64,000 nucleotides of DNA from positions 19,965,995 through 20,029,994 of the forward strand of contig OZ037765.1 in the NCBI GenBank assembly GCA_964035545.1, in the 5' to 3' direction. This DNA comes from Bugula neritina. Its lineage: Eukaryota; Bryozoa; Gymnolaemata; Cheilostomatida; Bugulidae. Shown in pieces: positions 41,101 through 44,100 of the stretch (positions are counted from its first letter, which is position 1; each line of letters starts with the position of its first letter). The notes under the pieces were generated by a model. That model saw only the letters and a program-made list of their open reading frames with translations. It searched no databases and was not told the DNA's origin. Both the position numbers and the translations under genes were made by a program.

Positions 41101-44100
41101 TATCCACAAACAAGAAGTGGCCAGTACGCTTAGTAACAGCTTGCTCAAAGATTCACATAAAATAGTGTGCTATTGTTGCTGAAGAAGAATTATTTGGGGC
41201 AAAAAATTTCTTTAGCATTGCAGTTACAGAGTATAAATGTAGATATGGATTTGGTGAGCTGTAGCTAATTTTAATGTTTTTAATAGTCGCCATCATACCT
41301 GATCTTTGTATGATTCAAGAGTCTCTTCGTATTTCAGAGCTGCAGAGCTATTTGTCTGGTTAGTATTTGGCTGTAGAGGTGCTGGGCCAACTATTATGAT
41401 GGTGGCAGTTAGACAACCAAGAAACAATGCATAGACTACCAGGTTAAAAAAGTTTAACCAGAAGCCAACTTTGCTCCTAAAAGAGTAATAGATAGAAAAA
41501 CTAGTACATACAATAAATTCCTCTTTGTACTTATACAATAGCTTATCTGTGTTAACAGAGAAGTCAAATTTCTGTACATGAGTAACGGCGGATGTTTGAA
41601 TTACACTATAATTCATCTAAATAGAAAATCTGAACAGTCATGCTAAATAGAGTAGAGTTTATTATTCTAAGTTATAAAACTTATAAATTTGGTACTTAGG
41701 TAGTAGTCAAAAAACACTCTTTAATGTTCTTATAATGTCAGTTAGTAATGCTTACCATTTCATCTGTATAAACCGGAGACAGACTGGATGAGAGAGACAA
41801 TCCACTCTTTGAAAGTTTACCATTGACTACAACAAATTGCATGGACTCTTTTTATTGGTTGCAATTGTATATAATGCATGATAGTATTTACAATACTATT
41901 AAAATATATTTTTGTGTATATTTATTTCAAAAAGTTGTTAACTTTGAAGATACTACTAATTTTCATGTAGCTTGTAGGCTACTATACTTCTTTTAGGCCA
42001 CAAATTCTTTGTTGGTGAGCGTATACAGCATGAGTCATTGACTGCCACATCACTACCTTGTTGTGAACCTACCAGGAGAACAGACATGGGAACTGTCGCA
42101 AGCTGCACATTAGCTGGTACTTCCTCGTCACTTGGCGGCGGTGGTGGAGGTGTTTTAGAATCCAAGTCAGGCAGAGTTTTAATTAAATCAAAGTGATAAG
42201 TCACATGATAGTCTGAGGAGACTGGGTCATGCTTAGAGCTTTCAGCACATCTATCTAGAGCAGCCTGGAATATAGCAAAAATAAATTTGACAGCAAAGCT
42301 TATTGTAGCTTCTACTGTTATAAAAAACAAAAATGGCTTGCAACAGAGAATGTACTTTTTTATTAAGAACTGATTACAAACCATGTTAGCATCATATTAA
42401 AAATATTTAGGATTTCATTTTCATAGGTCAATTCAACACCCTCTGAGTTATATACATACTACTATGCATATATTTATACCAATACCAAAATATGCACAAT
42501 ATATCCAGCTAGACGAAAGTATCAGCTTAACATTCTACAGTGGCAGTTGCATATGCATCAATTACATATCACTATTAAATAGATTCATAATTCCATGCAG
42601 TGAGCCAGTAGAGTAAATACCACTTACCATACAAATATCTGGTAAGTATCTCACAAAACCAAGAGTGTAAGTCCCAAGGACCCATGTAGGTAGCAGCAGG
42701 ATTTCTTTCCATCGATCATGATTTACCACAGCCAAAGCTGCTTCATGATGAGCTGAAATAAAATGCTTTTTAAATACAGAGCAAATAAAGTCTACTTGTA
42801 CATTACATGCTATAATAAATGGTCACTATCAGTTGACGGAAACAGAGCCAAATGTTGGTAAACCTATTAGTAAAATATCTATCAAAAAATGTTTTGTGTA
42901 CTTAGTTATCTAGTTTTACTTGTTGCTAAGATATCAGCCTATAAATCTTGTTTTTGATATTAAATGCAACACAAGGTCACATGCAAACACTTGAGGATGC
43001 GCTTGCTGACAGGTGTTACTCACATCTCTCTATGGCAATGTCAAGGAATGTTCGTCTCTCCTTGTTCTCGGTGACTTCACTGCCCACCGTTAGCAGCAGA
43101 TCAATAGCCTTGGGTTTGTTTGCTGTTGCTGCCTCGTGTAGAGGGGTGTTCTACAAGTTTATTAAACTGCATTGCACTAAAGGAGTGGAAGCCAAATTAT
43201 GTGTGCAGATGAGGTGCTAAAGGAATGTTACTGATTACACAATTAAATCACTAATTAGGTTAATTTTAAAATATATAACATGTTTTTTACGTTATACCCC
43301 TTATGAAACCCGGCAATAGTGGAAAAAAGCTGAGCTAAATACAAAATCTTATTTTTGACAGGAAGACATTATTTTGCAGAAAGTTATATCATCAGTATTC
43401 CATGCTACTACAAGACCTACTATTTTGAATCAAGCTATGTGCATGTGCATAACAAACAAGTAGGCCTGCAATGATCATTATAATATAATATGTATATATA
43501 TATGTATATATAGTATATATATATATATATATATATATATATATAATATATATATATATATATATATATATATATATATATATATATATATATATATATA
43601 TATATATATATATATGTATATATATTGAGGTATTATGCTCTCACTTAATGCTCAGCAATGACATTCAGTGATTGAGCTCTCTCACCATGGTCACAAACTC
43701 AAGCTGCTAGCATTTTGCAAGGCTCGTGACTCCTAGGTGACCCCTAGAGTCACTTGAGCTCTCTGGCTTGAGTTTACACACCTTTTAAATATGCTTTAGT
43801 AGAAACATAAGTTTCCACTATTGCGAAGGTGTGGGCCATGGTACTCTGTTCTGTGCTGATGAGGGGACAAACCCCGAAACAGCTGCTGTCCACAGATTGA
43901 GGTATATATATATATATATATATATATATATATATATATATATATATATATATATATATATATATATATATATATATATATTATTATAATATTGAAGTAT
44001 TGAGTTATGTTTTAAAAGTTCGGATGTTTCATTTGCTGGAATTTCTATCAAATTTCAAAATGAATTATACTACATGCCAGCTTTTTTTGCAAAAAAATTA

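Follow-up and report, generated by a model that had tools for sequence, protein, structure and literature searches.

To explain how the RNA circles of animal non-LTR retrozymes return to DNA, it was proposed in 2020 that the circles serve as templates, for which a proper primer would be needed, and Penelope-like elements were named as strong candidate mobilizers (Cervera and de la Pena, 2020; PMC7229834), a proposal repeated elsewhere (PMC8969392). With the purified Penelope-like protein of Anolis, cDNA starts inside the template RNA, downstream of a hammerhead, at two adjacent sites and on AT-rich DNA (Frangieh et al., 2024; PMC11167929). Here we describe a retrozyme family of the bryozoan Bugula neritina with hundreds of copies, whose ends point to one start and one kind of target, and which has a partner element with the same target. 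This footprint fits the 2020 proposal and adds to it a start point and a target.

An Antisense Hammerhead in a TRPA1 Intron

The copy first noticed lies in a window of 64,000 nucleotides on chromosome 1 of B. neritina (C1:19965995-20029994). TRPA1 is encoded there on the minus strand; by eye, its ankyrin-type pieces lie within 44963-52671 and its channel pieces within 37734-42822. Once joined, these exon pieces gave matches to solved TRPA1 chains (best E 7.8e-117). A preliminary description had placed a complete type I hammerhead in a TRPA1 intron, antisense to the gene, and this placement holds: the motif sits on the plus strand between 42822 and 44963, flanked by the minus-strand frames 44963-45151 (ankyrin) and 42562-42822.

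The predicted ribozyme occupies 43844-43901, and the invariant core, the three perfect helices and the internal loop of stem I claimed for it are all found on reading the letters. Stem I pairs CTGTG (43851-43855) with CACAG (43891-43895) and is extendable by the pair T43850-A43896. The catalytic core CTGATGA (43856-43862) is followed by stem II, in which GGGG (43863-43866) pairs with CCCC (43872-43875) around the loop ACAAA, and then by the core GAA (43876-43878), which belongs to a GAAA (43876-43879) whose last A opens stem III. The latter pairs ACAG (43879-43882) with CTGT (43886-43889) around the loop CTG, and from the hammerhead layout cleavage is predicted 3′ of C43890 (43890/43891). CTC (43844-43846) can pair with GAG (43899-43901), which sets TGT opposite TT. 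Loops I and II are both present. Stem III contains the palindrome CAGCTG, through which two copies could pair with each other.

When the whole layout was scanned for, with stems of at least 5, 4 and 3 bp, 43844-43901 was the single plus-strand match in the window, and the minus strand had none; in random sequence with the dinucleotide make-up of the window, one match was found in 51.4 million nt. The earlier judgment that the whole layout is improbable by chance is borne out by this control, and a chance origin is excluded as well by hundreds of near-identical genomic copies. Covariance models were less favorable. Rfam gave no hammerhead in the whole window at curated cut-offs and none in 351 bases around the motif at E up to 5. 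When 69 bases were submitted, two models aligned on the correct core, though below cut-off: RAGATH-1-hammerhead with 19.1 bits (cut-off 56.3, E 0.16) and Hammerhead_3 with 14.9 bits (cut-off 48.5, E 0.48). RF00163 had no match in the B. neritina genome and equally none in 14 of 14 control genomes, which makes its silence uninformative. The preliminary description had counted the lack of a significant covariance score against the motif; no Rfam hammerhead model reached its cut-off, yet chance is untenable given the repeat family. As Rfam confirmation failed at every threshold tried, the case for the motif rests on layout, random control and repetition. Secondary-structure folding does not set the motif apart (z -0.77 and z -1.01), and structures with all three helices make up about 1% of an ensemble computed from secondary structure without tertiary contacts. 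The hammerhead is confirmed letter for letter, and its RNA would be expected to cleave itself.

A Dispersed Family of 272-nt Units

What is a hammerhead doing in a TRPA1 intron? With near certainty, it serves as the ribozyme of a non-LTR retrozyme with a unit of 272 nt; non-autonomous retrotransposons of this kind are already known from animals. The early title of a TRPA1 intron ribozyme was right as to location but missed that the motif is part of a mobile-element copy at 43624-43905 (plus strand). Alignment to the unit of locus L002, which is this same copy, shows 282 nt, or one 272-nt turn plus 10 nt. Tandem Repeats Finder places a (TA)n array on either side, upstream at 43479-43625 (period 2, 74.5 copies) and downstream at 43903-43992 (period 2, 46.5 copies); the outermost bases of the copy (5′ AT, 3′ TAT) can be assigned equally to the array. 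GAGG|TAT at 43899-43905 (plus strand) is the constant 3′ end of the family in a junction survey of 80 copies and the probable start of reverse transcription. No frame in the open reading frame listing of the window spans the copy, TA-array frames aside.

The intron is an incidental landing site. That the ribozyme functions in TRPA1 expression, a possible sense of the early title, would suit its intronic position and intact core, but it is antisense to TRPA1 and one of hundreds of dispersed near-identical copies, and this explanation can practically be dismissed. A conserved intronic ribozyme was likewise rejected because the motif belongs to a repeat family of hundreds of copies. With one ribozyme, an RNA of the window copy could be cut once and could not release a unit-length RNA.

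Genome-wide, searching with 121 bases around the motif yielded 770 first-look candidates, 40 of which received a score; identity was 98-100% in 40 of the 41 matches listed, the other being a fragment at 96%, and several of the matches listed sit exactly 272 apart. A pattern of 27 ribozyme bases, two mismatches being allowed, had at least 250 forward and at least 250 reverse matches, and its reversed control had none genome-wide. A 149-base query for the rest of the unit gave 415 first-look candidates against the 770 for the ribozyme part, a difference that fits 5′ truncation. Copies are dispersed, lack LTRs and carry up to five ribozymes. Single copies directly abut (TA)n, and the five ribozymes of L003 stand in head-to-tail 272-nt units with (TA)n arrays on either side. 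The predicted fold of the circular unit is 72% self-paired.

Collapsing overlapping loci left 80 distinct copies out of 78 loci, with lengths of 62-1375 nt (median 272), of which 71 are standard. The others are L034, L045, L059 120-185, L063 2497-2639, L065, L066, L071 2386-2598 and both L078 copies; L034 departs from the standard copies just by a slight alteration of its terminus, and the second L078 copy breaks off where its locus stops. Median divergence of the standard copies from their own majority sequence is 1.1%, and 25 of the 71 run more than 10 nt beyond one turn. The copies are not all independent (L076 and L077 have one 3′ flank in common, and the two L008 copies are alike), and the sample leans to young copies because they were fetched by an intact ribozyme core or close similarity. 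In L078, retrozyme sequence (1938-2209 and 3845-4000) lies within other repeated DNA, with an exact 272 nt opened elsewhere on the circle and outside (TA)n, and L071 holds an inverted pair (1967-2193 and 2386-2598) with identical flanking sequence, also in other repeated DNA. Bryozoa may be an addition to the hosts of retrozymes; Bugula and hammerhead were not found together in a limited literature search.

Some other repeats and insertions were seen in passing. The window has tandem arrays at 7626-8569 (23-bp unit, 41 copies) and 30113-30626 (36-bp unit, 14.4 copies), and an open frame at 20493-20837 (plus strand) that by eye resembles a fragment of a LINE reverse transcriptase. The mitochondrial COX1 of the assembly shows 100% identity with a B. 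neritina record. A COX1-like sequence on chromosome 6 (C6:11174072-11175412), a near full match, is perhaps a nuclear copy of mitochondrial DNA; similar sequences occur on C17, C65, C196 and at C4:5169166, and one on a small contig, free of TGA codons, is perhaps symbiont or food DNA.

Constant 3′ Ends, Scattered 5′ Ends and a TA Target

The two ends of the copies behave differently. At the 3′ side, the ends of 71 of the 80 copies fall within unit positions 0-8, which lie 8-16 nt past the cleavage site (CACAGATTGAGG|TATATA), and 60 of the 80 share the same position, 7. This constancy is no artefact of the bait, since the ribozyme bait stops before that point. The 5′ ends of the 71 standard copies fall at 51 distinct positions, and the densest 5-nt stretch holds 10/71 of them as against 63/80 of the 3′ ends. 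Thirteen of the 71 lie in the first 34 unit positions; these include the TATTAT at the constant point, where a 5′ end makes exactly one turn. The nine copies in 80 that end away from the standard point count against the mechanism favored below.

The cleavage site itself is not where copies begin: one 5′ end in 71 lies within 2 nt of it (1.3 expected), and CTGTC|CACAG is unbroken in 67/71. A linear cleaved unit, with its 5′ end at the cleavage site, would yield merely a stub from the constant start. We therefore infer that the templates were uncut or had been closed again.

Beside 60 of the 71 3′ ends and 45 of the 71 5′ ends stands a run of alternating TA of 10 nt or more; for control positions the figures are 4 out of 63,071 (window) and 814 out of 116,140 (loci). 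In the 55 of 71 copies with measurable 5′ joins, element and array have a mean of 1.36 bases in common, against 0.68 in random joins, and none of 100,000 resamples reached the observed mean. This footprint of constant 3′ end, scattered 5′ ends and TA target is apparently the new part of the system; a literature search of partial coverage found no report of a retrozyme in TA microsatellites.

Copies Longer Than One Turn

How do copies come to exceed one turn? Where a copy covers a position at least twice, its turns give 69 differences in 6955 (0.99%), and units of separate copies give 8488 in 345,212 (2.46%). Twelve of the 25 multi-turn copies have no internal difference, and in five (L014, L015, L043, L047, L053) the turns differ more than separate copies do on average. 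Three rare alleles occur in every turn of their own copy, where 0.3 would be expected if turns were independent, and 34 are not common to all turns. These data favor repeated copying of one template in many, not all, of the tandem copies. Later mutation would account for part of the remaining differences between turns; mixed arrays require another route.

Tandem copies could also be built stepwise, each new insertion landing in the TA array next to an existing copy, or result from unequal recombination. In favor of this, 5′ ends are most frequent in the TATTAT zone of the constant point, where the junction with an older copy would be seamless, and L015 joins units from two subfamilies. Such origins are difficult to reconcile with turns that are nearly identical inside most multi-turn copies and with the three all-turn rare alleles, although homogenization after insertion could mimic this pattern, and we regard them as unlikely.

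A stronger alternative, which we hold to be possible though clearly the lesser one, is that the template is a long, uncut, multimeric linear transcript, copied from the same internal start by the same element at the same target. The mixed tandem copies L014, L015 and L043 fit transcripts of heterogeneous arrays, and in Anolis the main substrate was RNA that had not been processed, with normal insertion of ribozyme mutants (PMC11167929). Set against this are the 12 of 25 multi-turn copies free of internal difference, the low divergence within as opposed to between copies, and the build-up of related retrozymes as circles (PMC7229834). Target-primed copying of a circle, which we favor, in turn has the normal insertion of the Anolis ribozyme mutants against it.

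A Candidate Mobilizing Element

Is there an enzyme in the genome with the same target? A Pfam search of the genome for GIY-YIG gave one match among four candidates, in a single frame that we take to be SLX1-like. The absence of Penelope-like elements that this might suggest is a false negative: a Penelope-like reverse-transcriptase motif matched 29 places with E no higher than 1, 24 of them below 0.001, and one of the weaker places falls within retrozyme locus L040. The frame there (2498-3865, minus strand, 455 aa, 5′-truncated) matches RVT_1 in Pfam at 40.6 bits (cut-off 29.6) and, out of 5558 candidates, 2100 are its relatives by a limit of E 1e-5. Pfam has no direct GIY-YIG match in this frame; its C-terminus aligns with the GIY-YIG domain of a relative, P0142 (494-574, E 8.8e-6). 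By this alignment it is a putative Penelope-like reverse transcriptase with a C-terminal GIY-YIG endonuclease.

The Penelope-like element has the same target as the retrozyme. In L040 it ends in GCTCGTAAAGATATATTTA and then (TA)n, and other copies stop about 30 nt earlier, at CCTATTTATA. Among ten 3′ pieces, a TA run follows at once or within two bases in nine, and in the tenth (L052, plus strand) an A-rich stretch precedes the TA; eight of these pieces come from retrozyme loci and are thus a biased set, and the remaining two are both sides of one copy. In eight further 3′ ends chosen without regard to retrozymes, (TA)n was present in 8/8. Copies also carry an inverted short tail at the opposite end, as in the pair C6:4152485-4152591 (-) adjoining C6:4152593-4152725 (+), and in L085 881-1001 this likewise lies in (TA)n; it looks as if both target strands had primed.

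The two elements are also found together. Retrozyme loci hold eight Penelope-like pieces in six loci where about 0.5 would be expected, a rough excess, as the expectation was derived from 425 first-look candidates, maybe an undercount, and 256,838 bases of loci. In L040, L052 and L061, a Penelope-like piece and a retrozyme occupy one TA-rich stretch. In L062 (4163-4440), a diverged Penelope-like piece ends at CATAATCAAGG|TATATA, a sequence close to the retrozyme's own GATTGAGG|TATATA.

A minimal type of hammerhead lies near the 3′ end of Penelope-like elements. The L040 copy has a hammerhead-like CTGAAGA...GAAA in which stem I has 5 bp and stem II is preceded by one extra base, and its presumed cut falls 85 nt upstream of the final GATATATTTA; Rfam lists no hammerhead in the L040 tail. 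Retrozyme unit and Penelope-like tail have no common sequence (best match 9 nt, E 0.92), which leaves recognition of the RNA unexplained and weighs against the favored mechanism.

A LINE that targets or carries TA microsatellites might be the mobilizer instead of the Penelope-like element. There are LINEs that have AT-rich microsatellite tails and that target microsatellites (PMC8969392; a title cited in PMC6515669), and RVT_1 has 2124 first-look candidates in this genome, with many long open frames among the 150 scored. The two retroelement families examined for such a partner, through a single copy of each, have ACAA repeats and poly(A) at their 3′ ends, unlike the Penelope-like element with its (TA)n 3′ end; a LINE partner was set aside on these grounds and seems quite improbable.

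A Proposed Route from RNA Circle to Chromosome

Taken together, the observations suggest the following route. The hammerhead would cut multimeric transcripts into 272-nt units, which would be closed into circles, as is known from relatives and presumed for B. neritina. A Penelope-like retrotransposon of the same genome would provide the endonuclease and reverse transcriptase. Its enzyme would nick a TA microsatellite, the TA end of which could pair with the UAU just past the ribozyme, and cDNA would be made from that single point, in many cases beyond one full turn of the circle. The copying would halt almost anywhere, and the 5′ end would be joined through short TA homology; the copy in the TRPA1 intron would be one such insertion. 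We put the probability that circles are copied at TA microsatellites by a Penelope-like enzyme at roughly 0.7, a figure restrained by a GIY-YIG assignment made by alignment and by the five mixed copies among the 25 of more than one turn. A start site with no homology to the target, as in Anolis, also speaks against it (PMC11167929).

We give even odds to the more specific claim that the footprint was left by a microsatellite-targeting Penelope-like enzyme which reverse-transcribed a ribozyme-made RNA circle, primed at the target and for several turns. Pairing between circle and nicked TA repeat would then set the single start point, and head-to-tail DNA would stem from circular RNA. If true, target-primed copying of circles would be the missing step in the life cycle of animal retrozymes and a natural route for small circular RNAs into chromosomes. 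With the ends of the B. neritina copies and a partner of the same target in hand, the return to DNA becomes directly testable in vitro.

Relation to Other Hammerhead-Bearing Elements

The B. neritina family is closest in kind to the animal non-LTR retrozymes of Acropora, Mytilus and Ambystoma, which likewise have a type I hammerhead in a repeat about 170-400 bp long, present as single to multimeric copies, a range to which the 272-nt unit conforms (Cervera and de la Pena, 2020; PMC7229834). Low GC, the absence of LTRs and, as far as the window copy shows, of a coding frame, a circle predicted to be highly self-paired and the presence of Penelope-like elements in the genome are also common to both (PMC7229834). 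The B. neritina family differs in its insertion into TA microsatellites with constant 3′ and scattered 5′ ends, which the available text of that paper does not describe, and in a stem III of 4 bp with a 3-nt loop.

Plant LTR retrozymes are also non-autonomous and spread through ribozyme-made RNA circles, but they are larger, carry type III hammerheads in their LTRs and are presumed to use Gypsy machinery (as described in PMC7229834). Carnation CarSV is a small hammerhead RNA with multimeric DNA, found in microsatellite-like sequence in some cultivars; this plant element is linked to a pararetrovirus, and the likeness is one of description, not of sequence (PMC9695139). In Terminons and Athena, as here, a hammerhead lies beside template repeats complementary to the DNA end used, but those elements are telomeric, giant and autonomous, whereas the B. 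neritina unit has 272 nt and lies in intrachromosomal microsatellites (reviewed in PMC12477314).

Poseidon of Anolis has constant 3′ ends that likewise result from an internal start downstream of a hammerhead (Frangieh et al., 2024; PMC11167929). Its two adjacent sites and AT-rich target may be set beside the two ends, about 30 nt apart and in (TA)n, of the B. neritina Penelope-like element. Unlike Poseidon, the retrozyme codes for nothing and would start 8-16 nt past its own cleavage site, at a point with pairing potential toward the TA target; the Anolis site has no homology to the DNA it enters (PMC11167929).
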